Origin: Dehalococcoidia bacterium
Lineage (GTDB): Bacteria > Chloroflexota > Dehalococcoidia > JAENJB01
Length of the DNA: 16,969 bases
Assembly: GCA_030690705.1 (NCBI GenBank)
Contig: JAUYGE010000226.1
Location: 1 to 16,969 of the forward strand
Direction of reading: 5' to 3'
Positions 3,962 through 16,674 of the stretch are shown one piece after another. The notes beneath the pieces are model-generated. The model had not been told where the DNA came from. It did no database searches and worked only from the letters and a program-made list of their open reading frames with translations. The number at the start of each line of letters is the position of its first letter. Position 1 is the stretch's first letter. The position numbers and the translations under genes were made by a program.

Positions 3962-4150
3962 ATGCCACTGGCTCAAATCACCCTGTTTGCGGGAAGAACG
4001 GAGGAGATGAGGGGGGAGCTGATACGGAGAGTCACCGATACCATTGTGGAGGTGCTTCACTGTCCCAGGGAAGCGGTTACCGTGGTGCTTCAAGAGATAC
4101 CGAAGACCAACTGGGGCGAGGCGGGAGTCCCCGCGTCGAAGAGGGGGTGA
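3962..4150 (+). CDS. 4-oxalocrotonate tautomerase family small protein
   Basis: This 62-residue protein has the size and layout of the tautomerase superfamily, whose members use an N-terminal proline, exposed after Met removal, as catalytic base. The start MPLAQITLFAGR matches the family pattern with Pro1 and Arg11, and the C-terminal half (VTVVLQEIPKTNWGEAG...ASK) aligns with it along its length. Two positions differ from the Pseudomonas enzyme: the residue aligned with Arg39 is threonine and the one aligned with Phe50 is tryptophan. The true substrate is therefore unknown and may not be 4-oxalocrotonate. GGAGGAG at 3951-3957 gives a strong ribosome binding site. It lies 17 nt after the NAD+ synthetase gene with no promoter between them. 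No aromatic degradation genes are nearby. Confidence 0.85.
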   Translation: MPLAQITLFAGRTEEMRGELIRRVTDTIVEVLHCPREAVTVVLQEIPKTNWGEAGVPASKRG

Positions 4151-6314: not shown

Positions 6315-7316
6315 CTAGAGCGACCAGAAGCTGACCAAGCGCTCGTAGTCCATCAGACCGCTCATGGCCCTGTACTCGGCCACGAGACCCTCCTCCGCCG
6401 CCGCCGCCACCGGGTTCAGTCCTCCCAGGAGGATGACGCCGACCCGGTTCTGGCTTATCGGAACGCCGCAGAGGGGCTCGCCTGTCTGCCCCATGGTCAG
6501 CAGCCCTCTAATACTGGCTCGCTCCAGGTCGCCGACCACCTGTTCCACGTTTGACCTGGTCTGGGCCGGTATCTCGCGGAAATTGGCCAGCACCTTCCCT
6601 TCCCCGGTACGCGTTACCTGGCCCACGGAAGTCATCCTGCTGGTGATGAATATCTCTGACGGGTCCAGGCTGGAGCCCGCGTAGTTGATGATCTCCACGA
6701 AGCGCAAGGGCTTACCGTTGCGCATTTGCAACAGACCGCCGAACCGCGAGTCCATGGGTATGCCGGCCTTGAGCAAGGCCCCGTTGACGGTGATGCTGCA
6801 CACTGTGGCCAGACCTATGCACCCGTCGGGAACGGTTACCTCATCCAGCTTCTCACCGGACCGTGCCAGGGCCACCAGGTCGCTGACGCAAAGCCCGGCG
6901 CGGAAAGCCGGGGACATGGCTGCCTTCGCCCTCTCGAAATCTTTCTGACGGAAGACGGAGGTGTTGACTACCACCCGGCCGGTGCGTCTCCCGGCGTCAA
7001 AGGTTGTGCGAAAGGCCAGCAGCTCTATCTGGGAAATTACGAAGCCTACCTTGTCGTTGACCAGGGCGTTCCTCAGCTCCTCCCTCCCCATCTCCGTGAT
7101 CTCCCGTCCGTCCCTGCCCACGAGCGAGGTCAGACCCCGTTCATCCATCAGTTTGAGATGATATCTAACCGCACGCTCGCCCAGGTCAACCCCGCGATCC
7201 CTCAGCTCGCGAGCAATCAGCCGCCCGCCTACCGGTTGCGGGGATTCCTGCACAATTTTCAGAATAGAGAGGACCTTTCTCTCCACATCCAGCGAATAGT
7301 CCTGTCCAATCACCAT
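6315..7316 (-). CDS. nrpR: NrpR-family transcriptional regulator (HTH + DUF128 domain)
   Basis: The protein has 333 residues. Residues about 11-66 form a winged helix (VERKVLSILKIVQ...LGERAVRYHLKLMDERGL), and the rest matches the NrpR/DUF128 effector domain, with segments such as VCSITVNGALLKAGIPMDSRFGGLLQ and VGVILLGGLNPVAAAAE. In methanogens NrpR represses nitrogen fixation and assimilation genes and releases DNA when 2-oxoglutarate is high. This copy has one HTH and apparently one effector domain, like the NrpRI form of Methanosarcina rather than the tandem-domain protein of Methanococcus. It is the last gene of the glutamate synthase operon, 25 nt after the GltB3-like gene, with a modest GAGGG ribosome binding site. 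The natural hypothesis is that it represses its own operon through the inverted repeat at 12978-13012. Family assignment is strong; target and effector are inferred. Confidence 0.88.
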   Translation of the reverse strand: MVIGQDYSLDVERKVLSILKIVQESPQPVGGRLIARELRDRGVDLGERAVRYHLKLMDERGLTSLVGRDGREITEMGREELRNALVNDKVGFVISQIELLAFRTTFDAGRRTGRVVVNTSVFRQKDFERAKAAMSPAFRAGLCVSDLVALARSGEKLDEVTVPDGCIGLATVCSITVNGALLKAGIPMDSRFGGLLQMRNGKPLRFVEIINYAGSSLDPSEIFITSRMTSVGQVTRTGEGKVLANFREIPAQTRSNVEQVVGDLERASIRGLLTMGQTGEPLCGVPISQNRVGVILLGGLNPVAAAAEEGLVAEYRAMSGLMDYERLVSFWSL

Positions 7317-7341: not shown

Positions 7342-8127
7342 CTAGCCGTAGGCATAGAGCCGTCCGTAAGGTCTAAGGTACAAAGGGACCAGCTTGATGA
7401 ACTTGCCCTGGAGAAGCGCCTCTGCCTCGTAGCTGAAATGGCGAGCGAACTCGCCCACCAGCGAGCCGAGCGCGGCCCGGTCGTTGTCATCCAGTTCCTT
7501 CACGCCCACCTCTTTGCCCAGCTGGTATTTCTCCACCTCGCCCCTCAAGTAGATAGCGCCGCCGTGCATGCCCGTGCCTATGAAGCGCGCACGATGTTTC
7601 TCCCCCGGCTTCAGCTCCATGCCGAGCACAATGACGGTGCCGCCCGCCATGTATTCGCCAAGAAAGTCCTGAGCGGTGCCGCCGATGACCAGCGCCGGCT
7701 TCCTCTCCTGGTACTCTTTCATGTGAATGGCGGCCCGGTAGCCCACATAGTCGCGGACGAAGATCTTGCCGTCCCGGGCCGAGAGCCCGGTGATGTCCCC
7801 GGCATGACCGTAGACCACAATCTCTCCATGGTTCATGGTGTTGCCGCAGCCATCCTGAGCGTTGCCGTGGACGCGGATGCGCGGCCCGTCCATGAAGGAC
7901 CCGAGGTCGTTGCCCGGCGTGCCATAGATATCTATCTCCACCGGCTGGCCCAGGTCGGTGCCGATATACCTTTGCCCGCAGACGTTGCGAAGCTCTATCT
8001 TCTTTATGCCGTCGGCCACCGCCCGCCGCAGCAGGTCGTTCAACTGCTGGGTGGTCAGCCCGGCAGCATCTATCTGAACGGAATCCCTCGCCGTTACAGC
8101 GGGGGAAGTCGGTTCTTTCCCTGTCAT
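7342..8127 (-). CDS. Glutamate synthase GXGXG subunit (GltB3-like)
   Basis: The 261-residue protein corresponds to the C-terminal GXGXG beta-helix domain of the large subunit of bacterial glutamate synthase, here a separate polypeptide. Glycine-rich turns recur from about residue 70 to 225 (YGTPGNDLGSFMDG, NAQDGCGNTMNHGEIVVYGHAGD, GGTAQDFLGEYMAGGTVIVLG), as expected for the right-handed beta helix. In the intact enzyme this domain is structural and helps line the ammonia tunnel. The ATG is 1 nt from the upstream stop and GGAGC lies about 8 nt before it, inside the end of the GltB2-like gene, so translation is likely coupled to it. Related GXGXG proteins also occur in N-methylglutamate synthase and formylmethanofuran dehydrogenase; the neighbours favour glutamate synthase. 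Confidence 0.92.
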   Translation of the reverse strand: MTGKEPTSPAVTARDSVQIDAAGLTTQQLNDLLRRAVADGIKKIELRNVCGQRYIGTDLGQPVEIDIYGTPGNDLGSFMDGPRIRVHGNAQDGCGNTMNHGEIVVYGHAGDITGLSARDGKIFVRDYVGYRAAIHMKEYQERKPALVIGGTAQDFLGEYMAGGTVIVLGMELKPGEKHRARFIGTGMHGGAIYLRGEVEKYQLGKEVGVKELDDNDRAALGSLVGEFARHFSYEAEALLQGKFIKLVPLYLRPYGRLYAYG

Positions 8128-8128
8128 C

Positions 8129-9634
8129 TCAAGCTCCTGCCATCTTAACCCCGAGGATTTCCAGTTCGGTATCGGTCAGACCTACGCCCCTCAGGTGGAG
8201 GCGGTTTCCCCGCAGGCTCTCCAGTGCGTTCACCCCCATGCCGCCGAGCATCTCCTTTATCTCCAGGCTCCAGCCCCGCAGAAGATTCACCAGGCGCTGC
8301 GCGCCGATATCCGGGTTTATCCTCTTGGTCAACCTGAGGTCTGAAGTGCATATGCCCCAGGCGCATTTCCCGGTATGGCATTGCTGGCAGACGGTGCAGC
8401 CCAGGGCCACCAGGGCGGCGGTGCCGATATACACGGCGTCGGCGCCGAGGGCAATAGCCTTTATAACGTCGCCGCTGTTTCTGATGCCGCCGGCAGCGAT
8501 CAACGATACCTGGTTGCGGATCCCCTCCTGGCGCAAGCGGGTGTCCACGGCAGCGATGGCCAGCTCGATGGGGATGCCCACATTGTCGCGGATTATTTTG
8601 GGGGCTGCACCCGTGGCGCCCCTGATGCCATCCAGCGCGATGATATCCGCCCCCGCCCGGGCTATGCCGCTGGCGATGGCGGCGGCGTTGTGCACGGCGG
8701 CGATCTTCACGCTCACCGGCTTGGTGTAGTTAGTGGCCTCCTTCAGGGCGGAGATGAGCTGCGCCAGGTCTTCAATGGAGTAGATATCGTGCTGTGGCGC
8801 CGGGGAAAGGGCGTCGGTCCCCTTGGGTATCATCCGTGTCGCCGCTACCTCCGCGCTCACCTTCTCCCCGGGCAGATGCCCGCCGATGCCGGGCTTGGCC
8901 CCCTGGCCGATCTTTATCTCCAGGATCCGGCCCACGTTCAGGTAATCAGGATGGACGCCGAAGCGTCCCGAGGCCACCTGGCAGATGGTGTTGGCGCCGT
9001 ACTTGTACAGCTTGCGGTGCAGCCCGCCCTCTCCGGTGTTGAACAGCGTGCCCATCTCAGTCGCCGCTCTGGCCAGGGACTTATGCACATTGATGCTGAC
9101 CGCCCCGTAGGAAAGAGCGCTGAAGAGGATGGGGACTTCAATCGCCACCTGGGGAGCCAGCTTGGTCTTCAACGCCAGGGAGCCCGGCTCCACTGTCAGT
9201 GAGTCGGGCTTACGACCCAGATAGGTCCGCAACTCCATGGGCTCACGCAAGGGGTCAATGGAAGGATTGGTCACCTGGCTGGCATTCAGCACCAGGCGGT
9301 CCCAGTAAATGGGATGGGCCTTGTCAGTGCCCATGCCGGTGAGGAGGATGCCCCCGCTCTCCGCCTGCCTGATGATGTCCTCGATAATCTCGGGCCGCCA
9401 GTTGGCGTTCTCCCGGTAATCGAGAGGGGTCCGCCGGATGTTCAGCGCCCTGGTGGGGCAGAAAAGGACGCAACGATGGCAGCCGACGCAGTTCTCCTCC
9501 CGGCTCCTGACCTCATCCTCGTCCGCATCACGGTAGTTAACATCGAAGCTGCACTGGTTGACACATACCTCGCACTGAATACAGCGGGCGGGGTCTCTTT
9601 CAACTATGAACCGGTTCGGCAAGTAAGTCTTCAT
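8129..9634 (-). CDS. Glutamate synthase FMN/Fe-S subunit (GltB2-like) with N-terminal ferredoxin domain
   Basis: This 501-residue subunit should carry out the synthase half-reaction: 2-oxoglutarate plus ammonia is reduced to glutamate on FMN. An N-terminal ferredoxin segment holds two [4Fe-4S] motifs (Cys18/21/24/28 and Cys49/52/55/59). The following TIM-barrel domain matches the archaeal-type GltB2 family, with GQGAKPGIGGHLPGEKV, the alternating strands SVKIAAV and IIALDGIRGATGA, and the FMN phosphate region ALGADAVYIGTAALVALGC. Cys413, Cys419 and Cys424 have the i, i+6, i+11 spacing of the [3Fe-4S] ligands of Azospirillum glutamate synthase. The start ATG is preceded by AGGAAGGGA. The upstream gap to the amidotransferase gene (138 nt) is filled by a repeat; downstream it almost touches the GltB3-like gene. 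Confidence 0.95.
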   Translation of the reverse strand: MKTYLPNRFIVERDPARCIQCEVCVNQCSFDVNYRDADEDEVRSREENCVGCHRCVLFCPTRALNIRRTPLDYRENANWRPEIIEDIIRQAESGGILLTGMGTDKAHPIYWDRLVLNASQVTNPSIDPLREPMELRTYLGRKPDSLTVEPGSLALKTKLAPQVAIEVPILFSALSYGAVSINVHKSLARAATEMGTLFNTGEGGLHRKLYKYGANTICQVASGRFGVHPDYLNVGRILEIKIGQGAKPGIGGHLPGEKVSAEVAATRMIPKGTDALSPAPQHDIYSIEDLAQLISALKEATNYTKPVSVKIAAVHNAAAIASGIARAGADIIALDGIRGATGAAPKIIRDNVGIPIELAIAAVDTRLRQEGIRNQVSLIAAGGIRNSGDVIKAIALGADAVYIGTAALVALGCTVCQQCHTGKCAWGICTSDLRLTKRINPDIGAQRLVNLLRGWSLEIKEMLGGMGVNALESLRGNRLHLRGVGLTDTELEILGVKMAGA

Positions 9635-9772: not shown

Positions 9773-10924
9773 CTAGCAGGCTCCTTTCGCGGCCGCCACC
9801 GCCCCCTCCGCCACTACCTTGGTCCCGCCCAGGCGGGCGATTACCGGTTCTCCTCCCATCGGTATCCAGGCCCTGTCCAACTCCGGACAGACCAGCCGGA
9901 TGGCCGACTCCTCGGAGGAAAGGAAGAACATGTCTCCCCTGGTAGCTGCCGTCAAAGGCCGCAGCCTTATCCTGTCCGTCAGTCCCATCATCTCTCCCTG
10001 CCGGGCGATGATGACGGTGAACGGGCCGTTGAGAAGGAGGCTGCCATAGACCGTCCGCAAAGCCCGGTGCAACTCCTGCTTGGCGGCAGGCATCCGCTCG
10101 ATCTCCTCCCAGAAAGCTGGGGCCAGCACCGAGACGGCTGCCTCCAGCGGCAGCTTGTGACGTCTCATCAGCAGGTCCACCGCATAGGCTATCACTTCGG
10201 TATCCGTCTGCAGGGTGCAGGCGTAGCCAAACATCTCCAGGTAGCGGCGGTTTATTCCGTAGGAAGAGATTTCGCCGTTGTGCACCACCGTCCAGTCCAG
10301 GATGTTGAAGGGATGGGCCCCACCCCACCAGCCGGGGGTGTTGGTGGGAAACCGGCCGTGGGCGGTCCATAGATAGCCCGCGTATTCCTCCAGGCGGAAG
10401 TAGCTGGCTATGTCCTCCGGATAGGCCGCTCCCTTGAATACCCCCATGTTCTTGCCGCTGGAAAACACAAAAGCGCCCTCGATGCAGGTATTAATCTGCA
10501 TCACCTTCTCGATGACGAAGTCATCCGCCGGGCGGCCGTTCAGGCTCGCCGCCTCCGGCTCCAGAAAGTAGCGCCACAGGCCCGGGGCGTTGCTCACCGC
10601 GATGCATGGGTTGACGGGTATTTCCTCGGCCAGGACCATGTGAAAGTTCTCTTTCAACAGGTCCTCGGTCTCCGTCCTGGCCTGCTTGTTCATATACATC
10701 AGGTGAAAGGCGTAGTAGTCGGCATACCTGGGGTAGAGACCGTAGACAGCGAACCCGCCCCCCAGCCCATTGCTCCGCACATGCATATTGGCGATAGCCC
10801 GGATGATGTCCTTCCCGGAGAACACCTTTCCAGAGACATCCATCATCCCGAAAAGGGAGCAGGCGCTGATTACCTTGTCATCGTTGTAGGGATTGTTGAG
10901 CTTGTTCATATCTCTGTCTATCAT
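9773..10924 (-). CDS. Class II glutamine amidotransferase subunit of glutamate synthase (GltB1-like)
   Basis: This 383-residue Ntn-hydrolase should hydrolyse glutamine and pass ammonia to the GltB2 subunit. The catalytic-cysteine motif is at residues 20-25 (SACSLFG), so Cys22 is not at the start. Removal of about 21 residues would be needed to expose it, as in GltB, which is made with a propeptide. Other family marks are TAHGRFPTNTPGWWGGAHPF, WTVVHNGEISSYGINRR, TLQTDTEVIAYAVD and a closing FLSSEESAIRLVCP. AAGGAG lies 6 nt before the ATG, supporting this start. The last residues (GGTKVVAEGAVA, then a few more) lie beyond the family core and closely match the tail of the ferredoxin encoded at 12465-12953. 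Repeats flank the gene on both sides. The alternative role in N-methylglutamate synthase is less likely, as no methylamine genes are seen. Confidence 0.92.
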   Translation of the reverse strand: MIDRDMNKLNNPYNDDKVISACSLFGMMDVSGKVFSGKDIIRAIANMHVRSNGLGGGFAVYGLYPRYADYYAFHLMYMNKQARTETEDLLKENFHMVLAEEIPVNPCIAVSNAPGLWRYFLEPEAASLNGRPADDFVIEKVMQINTCIEGAFVFSSGKNMGVFKGAAYPEDIASYFRLEEYAGYLWTAHGRFPTNTPGWWGGAHPFNILDWTVVHNGEISSYGINRRYLEMFGYACTLQTDTEVIAYAVDLLMRRHKLPLEAAVSVLAPAFWEEIERMPAAKQELHRALRTVYGSLLLNGPFTVIIARQGEMMGLTDRIRLRPLTAATRGDMFFLSSEESAIRLVCPELDRAWIPMGGEPVIARLGGTKVVAEGAVAAAKGAC

Positions 10925-11024: not shown

Positions 11025-12317
11025 CTATCGGTGAAGCCAGTTCCTGGCTGAGCCTTCTCTTCCGCAGGTCATCTGGCAGCGAGGCAGGCTGAACTCATCT
11101 GAGAGCAGGGCCTCCTTAAAGCTGCTCACGTTGACCCCCTCCCTCATCAAGCCGAAGATTATTCCCGCCCGCCCGATGTCGGAGACCATAGCCATGCCGG
11201 CGATCCGCCCGTCCTTGAGAATAACCTTCCGGTAGGTCTCACCCTCCAGATGGGAAAGAGCCTCGTAGCCGTTGCCCTCCGGCGGGTCGAACAGGCCGGC
11301 GGAGGCGATGGGCAGGCCGAAGTAGCCCAGAGAGTTCATGACGGTCCCGCCAGGATAGACCGCCTTCTTCCCGGCCATGTTGAACCCGGCCACCCGCCCC
11401 CCTATATAAGCATTCGGCCAGATGGGCGTCAGCCTAGCAACGCCGTAAACGAAGTCGTAGGCTTCCGCCGCATCGCCGCAAGCGAAGACATCGGGGTGGC
11501 TGGTTGCCATGTGCCGGTCAACCACAATGCCGCGCCCCTTCTTGATATCGGTGCCCTCCACCAGTTCCCCCCGCGGGCTTACCCCCACAGCCACACCCAG
11601 AATCTGACAGGTTATCTCCTGCCCGTTGTCCAGGACCACGCCGCCCACCGCCTCCGGACGCTCAGCGGAGGCAACCACCTCCTGCACCGTGTGCCCGGTG
11701 ACGACCTTCACCCCCGCCTTCTTCAGCCTGGCCTCCTCCAGCCTGGACACGTTCGCGTCCACAATGGCGCCCAGCACCCTGCCCATCTTCTCCACGATGG
11801 TGACCTTGATGCGCGACTTCACCAGCGCCTCGGTGAGGCTGATGCCGATGAGTCCGCCGCCGATGACCACCGCCTCTTTGGCCTTCTTCAGGGCGGGCCG
11901 GAGCTTGCGGGCGTCATTGAGGGTTATGAAGTTAAAGCGTCCCTCGAGACCGTCCCCCTTCATCGGAGGCACGATGGGCTTGCCGCCGCAGGCCAGCAGC
12001 AGCCGCTCCCAGGTCAGCTCCTCGCCGCTCTCCAGACGGACCAGGCGTCCTGCCAGGTCCAGGGCTGCCGCCTTCTTACCCAGAATGGCCTGGACGCTCT
12101 TCTGCTTATAGAAATCCGCAGGGCGGAAGTAGATCCCTTCAATGGTGCGCTCGCCGGCCAGGTACTCGGAGATGAGCGGGCGGGAATAGGTATGGTAGGG
12201 CTCATCGGAGAGAATCGCCAGAGAGCCTTCCTTGTCCGTCTCCCTGATGGCCTCGGCAGCGCCGATGCCGCCGGCGGAGTTGCCGATGATGAGATATCGA
12301 AAATGCTTCCGGACCAT
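11025..12317 (-). CDS. FAD/NAD(P)-dependent oxidoreductase, probable electron-input subunit of glutamate synthase
   Basis: The product is a 430-residue pyridine-nucleotide-disulphide-oxidoreductase-fold protein. An N-terminal FAD-binding Rossmann motif is at residues 9-20 (a glycine-rich variant, IIGNSAGGIG), a NAD(P)-binding motif at about 150-160 (VVIGGGLIGIS), and a second FAD contact late on (VFACGDAAEAYD). No redox CxxxxC pair is evident, which fits NirB-like or ferredoxin-reductase-like members. The ATG at 12317 is chosen because everything upstream in the open frame is translated repeat DNA (VVRQAHHERH, from the element at 12373-12449); AGGAG lies about 12 nt before this ATG. The ferredoxin gene precedes it and the glutamate synthase subunits follow. 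The likely role is passing electrons from NAD(P)H through Fe-S centres to the FMN subunit. Cofactor preference cannot be read from sequence. Confidence 0.87.
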   Translation of the reverse strand: MVRKHFRYLIIGNSAGGIGAAEAIRETDKEGSLAILSDEPYHTYSRPLISEYLAGERTIEGIYFRPADFYKQKSVQAILGKKAAALDLAGRLVRLESGEELTWERLLLACGGKPIVPPMKGDGLEGRFNFITLNDARKLRPALKKAKEAVVIGGGLIGISLTEALVKSRIKVTIVEKMGRVLGAIVDANVSRLEEARLKKAGVKVVTGHTVQEVVASAERPEAVGGVVLDNGQEITCQILGVAVGVSPRGELVEGTDIKKGRGIVVDRHMATSHPDVFACGDAAEAYDFVYGVARLTPIWPNAYIGGRVAGFNMAGKKAVYPGGTVMNSLGYFGLPIASAGLFDPPEGNGYEALSHLEGETYRKVILKDGRIAGMAMVSDIGRAGIIFGLMREGVNVSSFKEALLSDEFSLPRCQMTCGREGSARNWLHR

Positions 12318-12372
12318 GTCAATCCCTATCTCCTGAGAGCGCTTCACAACTGCTGCGGGACCGGGGTGGTGC

Positions 12373-12449
12373 CGTTCGTGGTGAGCCTGTCGAACCACAA
12401 CGGTCCCGATGCAATCGGGATTCACCCTTCGACAAGCTCAGGGCGAACG
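12373..12449. repeat. Dispersed inverted repeat, CGTTCGTGGTGAGC / CAAGCTCAGGGCGAACG family
   Basis: The left part (from 12373) contains CGTTCGTGGTGAGCCTGTCG and the right part ends CGACAAGCTCAGGGCGAACG at 12449. The two halves pair imperfectly, with a central CCCGATGCAATCGGG hairpin at 12404-12418. Translated on the minus strand it gives the tell-tale VVRQAHHER string. It occupies the 147-bp gap between the ferredoxin and oxidoreductase genes. Confidence 0.8.
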
Positions 12450-12464
12450 TATTGCCAAGCACAC

Positions 12465-12953
12465 TCATCTCCTGGCCACCGCCCCCTCCGCCGCCACCTT
12501 GGTCCCGCCCGGAGTGGCTCCATCAGTGAAGATTAAGGCCTGATTGGGACAGTTCGCCACGCAAGCGGGAGTTTCCAGATGGGGGCACAGGTCGCACTTG
12601 ACCGCCTTCTTCCGGTGGAAGTCGGGAATGATGGCGCTGCAGGGGCAGGCCACCACGCAGGTGAAGCAGCCCACGCACTTCTCGGCATCCACGGTTACTA
12701 TGCCCGACTCAGGGTCCTTTTGCAGGGCGCCGGTAAGGCAGGAGTAGACGCACCAGGGCTCCTCGCAGTGCCGGCAACTCAGCGGGAAGGAGAGACTCCC
12801 TTTCTGCTGCACCTTTATCCTCGACGGCTGCCGCGGCGTCTCTTTCTTGTAGGCCTTGATGATATCCTTCGACTCGGAGTGGGCCACCAGGCAGTGCACC
12901 TGGCACAGGCCACAGGCTATACAGACCTCTTCCTTCGAATAGACCCTCTTCAT
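12465..12953 (-). CDS. Ferredoxin with four [4Fe-4S] motifs, electron-transfer subunit
   Basis: The 162-residue protein belongs to the HycB/DmsB-like polyferredoxin group. Sixteen cysteines fall in four sets: 11/14/17/21, 60/63/68/72, 93/96/99/103 and 120/123/131/135, the usual pattern for four [4Fe-4S] clusters acting as a wire between redox partners. As first gene of the operon it probably links the flavoprotein encoded next to the FMN/Fe-S GltB2 subunit, which carries two further ferredoxin-type clusters of its own. Its tail (GGTKVAAEGAVA, then two arginines) lies beyond the last cluster and nearly duplicates the tail of the amidotransferase encoded at 9773-10924. The ribosome binding site is weak (AGGCG). 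Similar proteins serve many oxidoreductases, so the partner is inferred from gene order. Confidence 0.9.
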   Translation of the reverse strand: MKRVYSKEEVCIACGLCQVHCLVAHSESKDIIKAYKKETPRQPSRIKVQQKGSLSFPLSCRHCEEPWCVYSCLTGALQKDPESGIVTVDAEKCVGCFTCVVACPCSAIIPDFHRKKAVKCDLCPHLETPACVANCPNQALIFTDGATPGGTKVAAEGAVARR

Positions 12954-12977
12954 AACGCTTCGCCTGCTAAAGACAAA

Positions 12978-13012
12978 AATTGTAGGATAACGGCAACCGT
13001 TTTCCTACAATT
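12978..13012. promoter_or_regulatory. Near-perfect 35-bp inverted repeat, candidate operator of the glutamate synthase operon
   Basis: The arms are 12978-12993 (AATTGTAGGATAACGG) and 12997-13012, with one mismatched pair (12988/13002) and a 3-nt centre. It lies directly after the -10 box of the minus-strand promoter at 13016-13045, over the predicted transcription start, where a bound repressor would block initiation. It also lies about 25 nt upstream of the ferredoxin start codon. The NrpR-like protein at the end of the operon is the obvious candidate ligand, although the sequence does not match the GGAA-N6/8-TTCC operator of methanogens. A hairpin in the mRNA leader is the alternative. Confidence 0.75.
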
Positions 13013-13015
13013 CGA

Positions 13016-13045
13016 AGTATAAGCCTTCCGGGCTGGCTCTGTCAA
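13016..13045 (-). promoter_or_regulatory. Promoter of the glutamate synthase/nrpR operon
   Basis: On the minus strand, TTGACA (13040-13045, consensus -35) is followed after 18 bp by TATACT (13016-13021). The predicted start is near 13009, inside the inverted repeat at 12978-13012, giving a leader of about 55 nt before the ferredoxin ATG at 12953. Confidence 0.75.
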
Positions 13046-13124
13046 TAGCTTGTGCCCGTTGCCAGGTAGTACTTGGGCTTGCGAAGGCTCTGTGGCTCAA
13101 CCATGAGGGGACATGCCAGGATCT

Positions 13125-13184
13125 CTCCCTTCCCCCTCTCTATACGGAGGAGGACCCTCTCAACTTAGAGAGGGGGAAGGGGAG
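13125..13184. repeat. C/G-rich imperfect palindrome
   Basis: The left arm CTCCCTTCCCCCTCTCTA (13125-13142) pairs with 13166-13184 over 18 bp with one bulged base; the loop is 23 nt. It is downstream of the exported protein gene (stop at 13232) and upstream of the glutamate synthase promoter, both on the minus strand, so it could separate the two transcription units. No T-run follows. Its arm composition resembles the hairpin at 580-614. Confidence 0.65.
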
Positions 13185-13231
13185 TGAATTTCCTTGTTGT
13201 GTTAAGTGTCCGGTTGACCTTGCACAGGCCG

Positions 13232-14737
13232 CTAGACGCGCGCTACCATGCTTCGTCCGATGACCATGACCAGGAGGCCGATTATCGCGAGCGCCAGCAG
13301 GGCCAGGAGAACCAGCGCCCATATGGGAATGGGCCAGCCTATCTGCACCGTCCAGGGGGTAGCCCAGGCACTGGCATTGCCGGCGCCATCTATAGCCATC
13401 ACCCTCCAGTAGTAGAGGCCGCGTTCCAGCGTCTCCACCGAGGTAGTCGCCGTCAGGTTATCCTTGGTAATTACAGGAATAGAGAAGGTAGCATCCTTGG
13501 CAATCTGGAAACCGTAGACCACGCTACTGGGATCAGTTACCTCCCCCCATGTGAAAACAGGGGATTGCTTGCTCAGCGCACCGATGGTCTTGTTGCTGAG
13601 AGGACTGCGCAGGGCCGGTATTGCTGGAGCTTCGCTCTCCATTGTCCAGGCGAAGCTTAAGGAGTTGGTGCCGTCCGTAATCGCTACCGTGTGGGCGCCC
13701 GCCTTGGACTTGGGCATAACGAAGTTGCCGGTGAAGCTGCCCTTGTCCGTCGTCCTGATAGGGCCCACCGGGTTCAGCGCTGCCACATCCAGGGTCAGAC
13801 TGATCGATGCGTTGGCCTGGAACCCCGTGCCGCTGACCTTCACTGGAGTGCTGACATTGCCGGCAGTCGGGGTAATGGTCATGTTGGCCTTGACGGTGAA
13901 CTTGGTATCTGCCGTGGCCGAATTTTGGGCGGCATCGGTCGCCTTCAGCTCCCAGGCGCCCGCCGGGAACTCACCGAAGCCCACCTGCGCGGTGGCAAAG
14001 GTACCCAATTCATTGCTCTTCACTTCGCCGATCTTGGTGGGGCCCAGATAGATAGAGATCCTGTTGTCATCGGCCTGAAAGCCCTTGCCGCTGACGAGAA
14101 TCGGGGTAAGGGCCGCACCCGACGTGGGAGTGATTTCGGAGAGGCTGGGCTTAATCTCGAACTGCACCGCGTCGGTGAGGTCAAAGCTGGAGGTCCCCGC
14201 CGTTACATCATGGCTGCCGGCCGGGTTTTCCGGCACCGTAAAGGGATGGCTGAAGTTTCCGTTGGCGCCGACGGTACGAGCGCCCACCGAATTACCGTCG
14301 AAGTAGACCGTGACCGTCGAGTTCGGTGCGAAACGGGTGCCGCTCACGGTGACCCGAGAGCCCACGATGCCCTGGGACACCGAAAGCGTAATGGCGCCCT
14401 TCAGCACCTCGAAGTACGCAAAAGCGGTCTGGGTACCCGCGGTAACCACCACCACGTTAGTGCCCGTACTTATGCCGGAAGGCACTGTGAAGGAAGCGCT
14501 AAGCGTACCAGAAGCGGTCGTCCCCGAGGAAACGATTACGCCAGCGAAGCTGATCGTAAAGGCAGTGGCGGTGCCAGAGAAGCCGCTCCCGGTGAGAGTT
14601 ACCATGGTGCCGATATTGCCCGTCGTGGGCGAAATACTGATGGTCTGGGCGCTCGCCGGGGTGGCAAATGCCGGTGCGAACGGCAAGAAGGCTAACAGTA
14701 AGACGAGGGCTATGAAGACAAGAGAGGACCTTTTCAC
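13232..14737 (-). CDS. Exported, membrane-anchored protein with IPT/TIG-like and fibronectin-III-like domains
   Basis: The 501-residue precursor has a signal peptide with likely cleavage after ASA at residue 30. Four Ig-like IPT/TIG-type repeats follow (about 32-112, 115-196, 199-283 and 286-367), each opening with a pattern like ISPTTGNIGTMVTLTGSGF. A fibronectin-III-like domain at 372-466 contains the typical YYWRVMAIDGAGNASAW. A membrane helix at about 471-493 and a short basic tail (GRSMVARV) end the protein. It should be displayed on the outer face of the membrane, perhaps for adhesion or cell-surface structure; no enzymatic domain is seen. The start is a GTG with GGAGGT 9 nt upstream. 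Its own promoter lies at 14888-14916, leaving a leader of about 140 nt. It does not appear linked in function to the glutamate synthase operon downstream. Confidence 0.85.
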   Translation of the reverse strand: MKRSSLVFIALVLLLAFLPFAPAFATPASAQTISISPTTGNIGTMVTLTGSGFSGTATAFTISFAGVIVSSGTTASGTLSASFTVPSGISTGTNVVVVTAGTQTAFAYFEVLKGAITLSVSQGIVGSRVTVSGTRFAPNSTVTVYFDGNSVGARTVGANGNFSHPFTVPENPAGSHDVTAGTSSFDLTDAVQFEIKPSLSEITPTSGAALTPILVSGKGFQADDNRISIYLGPTKIGEVKSNELGTFATAQVGFGEFPAGAWELKATDAAQNSATADTKFTVKANMTITPTAGNVSTPVKVSGTGFQANASISLTLDVAALNPVGPIRTTDKGSFTGNFVMPKSKAGAHTVAITDGTNSLSFAWTMESEAPAIPALRSPLSNKTIGALSKQSPVFTWGEVTDPSSVVYGFQIAKDATFSIPVITKDNLTATTSVETLERGLYYWRVMAIDGAGNASAWATPWTVQIGWPIPIWALVLLALLALAIIGLLVMVIGRSMVARV

Positions 14738-14974: not shown

Positions 14975-15004
14975 TTGAGAGCAGTAGAACAAATGTGCTA
15001 CTAT
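14975..15004 (+). promoter_or_regulatory. Extended -10 promoter abutting the small HTH gene
   Basis: TTGAGA at 14975-14980 and TACTAT at 14999-15004 have an 18-bp spacer, with TGC directly before the -10 box. The gene's ATG begins at 15012, only 7 nt after the -10 box, so transcription should start at or next to the A of the start codon. Confidence 0.6.
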
Positions 15005-15011
15005 CGCGTCC

Positions 15012-15302
15012 ATGGACACCGTCGATTCTCTGCCCGAGCTATATCCCTACCGGGACGAGGGCTGCGCCCTCTCTCCTTCCTGTCTGCACTGCCCCTTCCC
15101 TTCATGCCTCGATGAGCGGCCGCGGGGGCGGCAGGGCTGGCTTAAGGAGCAACGCAGCCAGGAGATTGCCAGACTTCACTCCCAGGGGAAGAGCACCCGC
15201 GACCTGGCCCGCATCTTTGGTATCAGCCAGCGCACCATCCAGAGAGCCCTGGCCGCCACCCCCTCCCGTCATTGCGAGGAGGCTGTTGCCCATGCCCTTT
15301 GA
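15012..15302 (+). CDS. Small Cys-rich helix-turn-helix protein
   Basis: The 96-residue protein opens with DSLPELYPYRDEGC. A cluster of four cysteines follows at about residues 18-31 (CALSPSCLHCPFPSC), which could bind zinc. Residues about 47-80 form a resolvase/sigma-region-4-like helix-turn-helix (QEIARLHSQGKSTRDLARIF, then GISQRTIQRAL). It probably binds DNA; a small-terminase-like or regulatory role next to the portal gene is possible but unproven. The last dozen residues (RHCEEAVAHAL) are encoded by a half copy of a dispersed repeat (15269-15282), so the native C-terminus may have been replaced. The gene overlaps the portal gene by 11 nt. No ribosome binding site precedes the ATG, in line with a leaderless mRNA. 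Confidence 0.75.
   Translation: MDTVDSLPELYPYRDEGCALSPSCLHCPFPSCLDERPRGRQGWLKEQRSQEIARLHSQGKSTRDLARIFGISQRTIQRALAATPSRHCEEAVAHAL
15269..15282. repeat. Half copy of the GTCATTGCGAG repeat
   Basis: GTCATTGCGAGGAG matches the left end of the elements at 2064, 4195 and 10951, with no matching right end nearby. It encodes the RHCEEA part of the small HTH protein, and its AGGAGG (15277-15282) is the ribosome binding site of the portal gene. Confidence 0.6.
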
Positions 15303-16674
15303 CCCCGCCGTTCTCCCCAGGCTAGACCAGGACCGCATGAGGCGCTACACGGAGCATCTGGACCTCTACAACGGCCTCCAGTGGCCCGGGCCCTCGACCC
15401 GCCGGCAGGAGAGGCGGTTGACGTTCAACTACATCAAGACCGCCATCGATAAGGTCACCAGCTACCTCATGGGCTCTTTGAACTTCGCCGTCGACCCGCT
15501 GGAGGACACCGACCCGGCCAGGGACAAGGCCCGGGCGGCCGAGAAGGCCATCTACCAGGTCTACGAGGCCAACAACCTCTCCGCCCTGGACTTCCAGACC
15601 GAGATAGACGCGGCCATCCTGGGGGACGGCTGCTACAAGGTCACCTGGGACCCGGAAGAGAAGCAGGTCCGCGTCACCGCGCCAGACCCTCAGGGCCTCT
15701 TCGCCTGGTGGCGCGGCGACGACCCGTCACGGATCTGGCGCATCGCCTCCAGGTACACGCTCACCGCCGAGGAGGTGGAGGCCCTCCACCAGGTCAAACC
15801 CACCAGGGACAAGGCCGTGCTCGCCGAGGTGTGGACGCCGGCCACCTTCGAGCTCTTCATCGACAACGCCAGCCAGGGGGAGAAACCCAACCCCTACGGC
15901 TTCATCCCCTTCGTCTTGTTCCCCAACCTCCAGGAGCCCAAGAAGTTCTGGGGCATGTCGGACATACCCCCTATCACCGAGACCCAGAAGGAGCTTAACC
16001 GCGCCCTCTCCCAGCTCTCCCGCATCCTGGAGGTGTCCGGCAACCCTATCGCCGTCCTCGAGAACGTCGAGTCCTCGGAGGACATCGCCGTCCAGCCCAA
16101 CGCCGTCTGGAACATCCCCGAGGGGGCCAAGGCCTACCTGCTGGACCTCCTGCAGGGAGGCGGGGTCAGGCTCCACGTCGATTACATCGACCTCCTCTAC
16201 CGCACCCTCCACGACCTGGCCGAAGCGCCCCGGGCGGCCTTCGGCGGCATCGAGCGCGAGCTCTCCGGGGTCGCCCTGGAGATTGAGCTCCATCCCCTGC
16301 TGCAGAAGGTCAAGAGGAAGAGGACCTTGAGGAGCGCAGCCTACAAGAGGCGAAACGAGATGACCTTAGCCCTGCTAGGCCAGTACACCAGCCAGGAGTT
16401 CGGCCCGGTGTCCCACCGCATCGTCTGGGGCGCAGTACTCCCCCAGGACACCCAGCGCCAGGCCCAGAACGAGCAGCTCCTCGTCCAGACCGGCATCCAC
16501 TCCAGGCAGCTGGCCATGGACAACCTGGGCATCCAGGACCCGGAGAAGGAGTTCGGGAGGTGGATGGAGGAGAGAAAGCGCATCCTGGAGATGAATCAAG
16601 CATTGAGAGCCAGAAGCACCCGCGGAGGCGACCGAGAGAGAGCCGTCGCCCCGGAGGCCGAGGCTGTCGAGTAG
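15292..16674 (+). CDS. Phage portal protein (SPP1 gp6-like)
   Basis: The 460-residue protein resembles the SPP1-type portal family, whose dodecameric ring is the DNA entry port of tailed-phage heads. Seen directly: an N-terminal region RRQERRLTFNYIKTAIDKVTSYLMG, a wing-like segment YKVTWDPEEKQVRVTAPDP, the mid-protein YGFIPFVLFPNLQEPKKFWGMSDI and the long ETQKELNRALSQLSRILEVSG helix, followed by the SGVALEIELHPLLQKVKRKR clip/stem region. The length is typical. The ATG at 15292 is chosen because AGGAGG (15277-15282) lies 9 nt upstream; the frame stays open further upstream but only over the HTH gene. No large terminase gene lies between the HTH gene and this one, unlike the usual phage order, and the next gene looks scaffold-like. 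It could belong to a prophage, a remnant or a gene-transfer-agent-like cluster. Confidence 0.88.
   Translation: MPFDPAVLPRLDQDRMRRYTEHLDLYNGLQWPGPSTRRQERRLTFNYIKTAIDKVTSYLMGSLNFAVDPLEDTDPARDKARAAEKAIYQVYEANNLSALDFQTEIDAAILGDGCYKVTWDPEEKQVRVTAPDPQGLFAWWRGDDPSRIWRIASRYTLTAEEVEALHQVKPTRDKAVLAEVWTPATFELFIDNASQGEKPNPYGFIPFVLFPNLQEPKKFWGMSDIPPITETQKELNRALSQLSRILEVSGNPIAVLENVESSEDIAVQPNAVWNIPEGAKAYLLDLLQGGGVRLHVDYIDLLYRTLHDLAEAPRAAFGGIERELSGVALEIELHPLLQKVKRKRTLRSAAYKRRNEMTLALLGQYTSQEFGPVSHRIVWGAVLPQDTQRQAQNEQLLVQTGIHSRQLAMDNLGIQDPEKEFGRWMEERKRILEMNQALRARSTRGGDRERAVAPEAEAVE

Follow-up and report, generated by a model that had tools for sequence, protein, structure and literature searches.

The window, that is, the whole 16,969-nt stretch of DNA analysed, carries on its minus strand a glutamate synthase operon whose last gene encodes an NrpR-type regulator. 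Comparison of related genomes showed an operator core at the promoter of this operon, matching the dyad GGNA-N6-TNCC, and tied its occurrence to the presence of NrpR. We put a probability of about 0.85 on the joint reading, in which an NrpR operator would lie over the transcription start, with repression by a dimer, release by 2-oxoglutarate, negative feedback and a third half-site beside the core.

Operon and regulator

The genes of the operon, with the domains that identify them, are as follows.

12465..12953, minus strand: first gene, ferredoxin-like 4Fe-4S protein of 162 aa (Pfam Fer4_11)
11025..12425, minus strand: pyridine nucleotide-disulphide oxidoreductase subunit (Pfam Pyr_redox_2); the start codon of the longest frame was used, and the true start may be further downstream
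9773..10924, minus strand: glutamate synthase, glutaminase part (Pfam GATase_2)
8129..9634, minus strand: glutamate synthase, FMN-domain part with a 4Fe-4S domain (Glu_synthase, E 2.4e-138)
7342..8127, minus strand: glutamate synthase, GXGXG part (Pfam GXGXG)
6315..7316, minus strand: last gene, NrpR-type regulator with a winged helix and one NRD (HTH_12, NRD1_2)

With the start codons as used, the gaps along the six genes are 39, 100, 138, 1 and 25 bp, and a single transcript is therefore likely. The GATase_2, Glu_synthase and GXGXG domains are found in three adjacent separate genes, a split glutamate synthase that we take to be of the archaeal type. Near the operon, an SPP1-type phage portal protein is encoded at 14995-16674, possibly marking a prophage edge.

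An NrpR-type regulator had been proposed for the last gene, and the product of 7316-6315 was indeed found to match HTH_12 (E 3.2e-23) and NRD1_2 (E 1.2e-84), both above the curated cut-off and in the arrangement of the NrpR family, an N-terminal winged helix followed by the NRD. No NCBIfam match to the regulator was obtained at E 0.001. Residues 89-330 aligned with the NRD of archaeal MJ0159 (PDB 3nek, E 9.2e-26). The winged-helix stretch E47-K55 was invariant in 32 homologues with 62-86% identity to the window protein, as expected if these homologues share one DNA target. The protein, of 333 aa, has one NRD rather than two; NRD copy number varies within the NrpR family and is hence not taken here as defining.

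Promoter and inverted repeat

Five elements were located between the -35 hexamer and the first gene.

13040..13045, minus strand: -35 hexamer TTGACA (motif search; identical in the congener locus L039)
13016..13021, minus strand: -10 hexamer TATACT (motif search; identical in L039)
12978..13012, minus strand: 35-bp inverted repeat, pairing half-site 1 with half-site 3 (repeat search and shuffles)
12992..13005, minus strand: operator core GGAA-AACGGT-TGCC, half-sites 1 and 2 (conservation in relatives, dyad scan)
12985..12988, minus strand: third half-site ATCC, degenerate with A for T, 7 bp past half-site 2

The near-consensus promoter and the repeat were both described in the earlier note, and both were confirmed. 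The two hexamers are separated by an 18-nt spacer and match the consensus at 11 of 12 positions; such promoters are rare in shuffles, with one in 12850-13250 compared with a mean of 0.1 (sd 0.4). The repeat has 16-nt arms with one mismatch (12978-12993 and 12997-13012, 94% complementary, 3-nt loop) and reads AATTGTAGGAAAACGGTTGCCGTTATCCTACAATT on the minus strand from 13012 to 12978. No other repeat in the window combines 16-nt arms with no more than one mismatch and a loop no longer than 10 nt, and none of equal quality was seen in 20 first-order-Markov shuffled windows. The repeat begins 3 nt after the -10 hexamer, would span a predicted start site about 7 nt past the -10, and ends 24 nt before the start codon of the first gene (ATG at 12953). 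Between the upstream gene and the promoter lies a perfect 16-nt inverted repeat, CCCTTCCCCCTCTCTA, at 13127-13181; no further copy of 13049-13231, the segment holding it, was found in the organism's own draft genome (1.42 Mb, 74% complete).

A genome-contig search for related loci gave one locus. In the congener (G001), locus L039 matches the window at 94 of 95 nt over the stretch that begins 3 nt ahead of the -35 and runs to the start codon; further upstream it does not align with the window. As the operon proteins are themselves 95-98% identical between the two, this identity indicates no more than where the conserved block stops, at the promoter. A break in gene order at the -35 was considered and dropped, because inspection of the L039 sequence suggests that both have a comparable C-terminal coding end upstream, and only the intervening DNA differs. 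Three more nrpR matches, of which one is near full length and two are partial, were noted in the congener besides the operon copy (loci L040, G001:C8, and L041, G001:C151). The second congener nrpR is preceded by TTGACA, TAATAT and GGCAACCGATTGCC.

A core dyad that tracks NrpR

Conservation was examined in 148 genomes, comprising the organism's own, the one congener and others of the same class, Dehalococcoidia, to which the dehalogenating Dehalococcoides belongs. NrpR was found in 50. Among the matches listed, orthologous glutamate synthase FMN parts (63-100% identity) occurred in at least 38 genomes, giving 38 loci (the window, L039 and L090-L125), with a partial G085 match outside the set. 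The first gene was present in 31; L091, L092, L099, L116, L117, L122 and L125, where it was outside the stretch or unmatched, were excluded.

Of 24 NrpR-positive genomes, 23 have GGNA-N6-TNCC in the 300 bp upstream of the first gene, as against only one of seven NrpR-negative genomes, in line with the earlier expectation that the site would track NrpR presence (Fisher test, p = 6e-5 by genome, 3.5e-4 by family group, kinship not corrected). At the same loci, every other spacing between N0 and N15 (15 in all) gave 0-4 of 24 NrpR-positive loci, with the exception of N13 (9/24). In a scan of 4,032 palindromic dyads with three fixed letters and spacers of 0-20, GGNA-N6-TNCC ranked first, occurring in 16 of 17 family groups (one family being divided in two by genus) as opposed to a maximum of 9 in five shuffles. 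The distance from core to aligned gene start was 16-39 bp in 20 of the 23 loci and 110-219 bp in L101, L114 and L123. Approximately 10% of random 300-bp windows from the same loci matched the dyad, so that one hit among seven NrpR-negative genomes is about what chance would give.

Within family group f32, the NrpR-positive genome G032 has the site and the NrpR-negative G075 (86% complete) does not. Two observations speak against the association: in f43 the NrpR-negative G066 (96% complete) has a matching site, as do NrpR-positive members of the group, and NrpR-positive L096 matches only with one mismatch. The seven NrpR-negative genomes are 69-96% complete, and nrpR may thus have been overlooked in some. 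Outside the count, NrpR-positive L091 has the core and NrpR-negative L125 has none; L238-L240 and L242, retrieved for matching the core pattern, were excluded from it.

Exact matches to CGGNAANCGGTTNCCG across the 148 genomes gave only a loose association (14/50 NrpR-positive, 11/98 NrpR-negative). By a crude gene call, these sites fell inside a called frame in 11 of 12 cases for NrpR-negative and 9 of 15 for NrpR-positive genomes, and the association was therefore not taken as proof. In L105, L106, L107 and L109, four of the five genus g61 genomes, a second palindrome, CGGCA-N15-TGCCG, was noted besides the N6 core, some 162-174 bp ahead of the first gene.

Register of the operator

The window copy of the conserved dyad is GGAAAACGGTTGCC at 12992-13005, and its centre lies 3 to 4 bp from that of the long repeat. 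The half-site given in the earlier note, TTGTAGGAAAACGG, is in the wrong register. Nor did the claim that the operator is unlike the methanogen motif hold up. Methanococcus maripaludis NrpR binds GGAAN6TTCC (PMC2723118); the spacing is the same here, and three of the four methanogen bases agree, the third base of the half-site being mostly C rather than A.

The long repeat pairs GGAA with ATCC at 12988-12985, 7 bp beyond TGCC. An additional GGNA or TNCC occurred exactly 7 bp outward in 15 of 34 sites (GG or CC alone, 22/34), as compared with 0-2 (0-8) at other outward distances from 3 to 15. This set was obtained by leaving out 5 near-identical sites of 39, with L096 placed by hand with one mismatch and the nrpR sites chosen by the stricter GG.AA.{4}TT.CC. 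In 16 further sites selected on the core only (one duplicate of 17 dropped), the 7-bp half-site was seen in 6 (GG or CC alone, 9), as compared with 0-3 (1-4) at other distances. The degenerate ATCC of the window counts only under the looser GG/CC measure. By this comparison, half-sites 1 and 3 of a predicted three-half-site operator explain the long repeat, and the 7-bp rule accounts for much of the N13 enrichment.

The bacterial NrpR may read a 7-bp-spaced half-site array, GGNA-N3-GGNA-N6-TNCC-N3-TNCC, either in two registers that overlap (spacers of 6 and 13), the long repeat being the outer register, or with an extra subunit; we regard the chances of this as even. We know of no such array operator described for archaeal NrpR. 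Such a design, if real, would adjust how strongly glutamate synthase and nrpR are repressed.

Several candidate sequences were set aside. Exact copies of the 14-mer TTGTAGGAAAACGG in the own draft genome, 74% complete, were the two arms only; with two mismatches, six other places were found. Another match in the window, GGGAAGCGGTTACC at 4068-4081, falls within a short coding frame and carries G where the 34-site set never does. Hits to GGNAANCGGTTNCC with at most one mismatch in G000 and G001 were not above the reversed control and were uninformative, while ACGGNA-N6-TNCCGT in eight f13 genomes gave 16 forward hits and 18 in the reversed control.

nrpR promoters and other nitrogen genes

The N6 dyad was present within 250 bp upstream of 18 of 41 nrpR genes, all of which had 150 bp or more of sequence upstream. 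Other spacings from N2 to N14 gave 2-7 each at these genes, apart from N13 with 15, part of which falls in coding ends of the preceding gene. The remaining 23 nrpR genes had no upstream core, and some of them lie inside operons. A phylum-wide search added 11 nrpR loci, 5 with a dyad within 300 bp (one weak, L224); L199 and L209 represent classes of the phylum other than Dehalococcoidia. Across the phylum NrpR is uncommon (23/201 genomes), and among 14 control genomes it was matched only in Methanocaldococcus jannaschii and Methanosarcina acetivorans. With the core before these nrpR genes and nrpR last in the operon, the autoregulation suggested in the earlier note is supported, and the operator is probably autoregulatory.

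By pattern, then, the site was found before glutamate synthase and nrpR genes. Glutamate synthase and glnA had both been proposed as targets of the half-site; the former stood, whereas the latter mostly did not, as 9 of 12 glnA loci had no site within 300 bp, 6 of these in NrpR-positive genomes. The window itself holds tandem glnA-like genes at 3-557 and 695-2035, the first truncated by the contig end, and no operator core was found within 300 bp of the complete one (695-2035). Palindromes like GGGGAAAATATTTCCCC, possibly a related site, occur about 20 bp upstream of glnA in L118, L120 and L121, all three genus g13 genomes; the other 9 glnA loci had no matching dyad. In L048 (G137:C172), a glnA end, a homologue of the ferredoxin-like first gene and nrpR stand in a row, apart from the remaining glutamate synthase operon of G137.

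Some NrpR-positive genomes without the orthologous operon carry a different glutamate synthase cluster. L226, L227, L230, L231 and L235 have cores at distances of 0.5-2.9 kb upstream from their first glutamate synthase match, and in L228 and L237 nrpR lies upstream of the cluster on the same strand, with the core before nrpR. None convincing was found in NrpR-positive L229 and L234, and none in L233 and L236 (NrpR-positive, short stretches) or NrpR-negative L232. These loci were partly chosen by pattern match and do not form a controlled count.

Proposed mechanism

In the 19 NrpR-positive loci covered, out of 24, the core lay 1-30 nt past the best-scoring -10, with an exact TTGACA in 11 of the 19, although this promoter search was permissive and uncontrolled. 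The position relative to the -10 makes start-site blocking the likely mode, and comparison of relatives supports the earlier placement of an operator at the start site of the operon. We infer that the NrpR-type protein would bind GGAA-N6-TGCC as a dimer just downstream of the -10 and, when nitrogen is plentiful, would block RNA polymerase. Nitrogen shortage would lead 2-oxoglutarate to accumulate and NrpR to be released; glutamate synthase and the repressor, presumably on a single six-gene transcript, would then be made together, giving negative feedback. Release of NrpR from its operator by 2-oxoglutarate is described in PMC11957540, and archaeal work on it in PMC4902934; by analogy, the same would apply in this bacterium. 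The third half-site, 7 bp on, accounts for the long symmetric repeat; it may make binding tighter or permit a second register. Counting against this explanation are the imperfect window core (GGAA/TGCC), the enrichment of N13 at first-gene loci and at nrpR genes alike (9/24 and 15/41), and the several nrpR matches in the congener, which leave more than one possible binder.

Among other explanations, binding of the site by a different regulator, co-inherited with NrpR, would fit the comparative nature of the NrpR-site tie and the several nrpR paralogues of the congener, and in 13 of 17 family groups the dyad can also be read as CGG-N3-CCG and as CGG-N10-CCG. The spacing and half-sites nevertheless agree with the published NrpR operator, and the site both follows NrpR presence and precedes many nrpR genes (18/41), making this explanation improbable. 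The repeat might instead act as RNA, in a 5' stem-loop that stabilizes the message or attenuates transcription. Two of seven folded leaders would allow this, that of the window (-22.9 kcal/mol, z -4.4) and that of L097 (z -6.3), but the other five gave z between -1.5 and +0.7, and no terminator-like site was called. The GGNA/TNCC letters are conserved, not the pairing; a DNA operator fits better, and a role as RNA appears somewhat more improbable still. We give least credence to the palindrome of 16-nt arms, with half-site TTGTAGGAAAACGG, as the functional operator, the N6 core being incidental. The 35-bp repeat is far from chance and is retained in the congener; its arms, however, recur nowhere else, in a genome whose operon proteins are 95-98% identical anyway, while the core is found in 16 of 17 family groups, and the half-site that forms the arms belongs to the recurring 7-bp rule. 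The NrpR operator over the start site therefore remains our preferred reading.

Comparison with known systems

On the sequence evidence, a known repressor-operator pair is present here in a bacterial variant. Sites were seen before its putative targets, glutamate synthase and nrpR, and the repeated 7-bp half-site is its predicted distinctive feature. The NrpR family is said to occur in certain Bacteria (PMC2723118). No bacterial NrpR operator was found in the literature searched, the main NrpR papers in subscription journals being outside its coverage. The comparison would give NrpR a testable regulon in bacteria, where the presence of the family was already on record, and would link an archaeal-style 2-oxoglutarate repressor to bacterial promoters and glutamate synthase in Dehalococcoidia; it also yields precise binding predictions, including the unusual 7-bp half-site repeat.

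The window regulator shares the NRD with Methanocaldococcus jannaschii MJ0159 (PDB 3nek), the matched chain covering the NRD part of that protein only. With methanogen NrpR acting at nif and glnA operators, the system shares an NRD-type regulator and two half-sites with a 6-bp spacer, and the predicted target likewise lies in nitrogen assimilation. The regulator has one NRD, whereas M. maripaludis NrpR has two copies. The main target here is glutamate synthase, compared with nif, glnA or glnK-amtB in methanogens. The site is also present at promoters of nrpR; in methanogens, by contrast, NrpR levels are reportedly unresponsive to nitrogen (PMC9765008), so that autoregulation would be no known trait of the family. 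Unlike the methanogen operators, finally, that of the window lies under a bacterial -35/-10 promoter, and extra half-sites spaced at 7 bp accompany the core.
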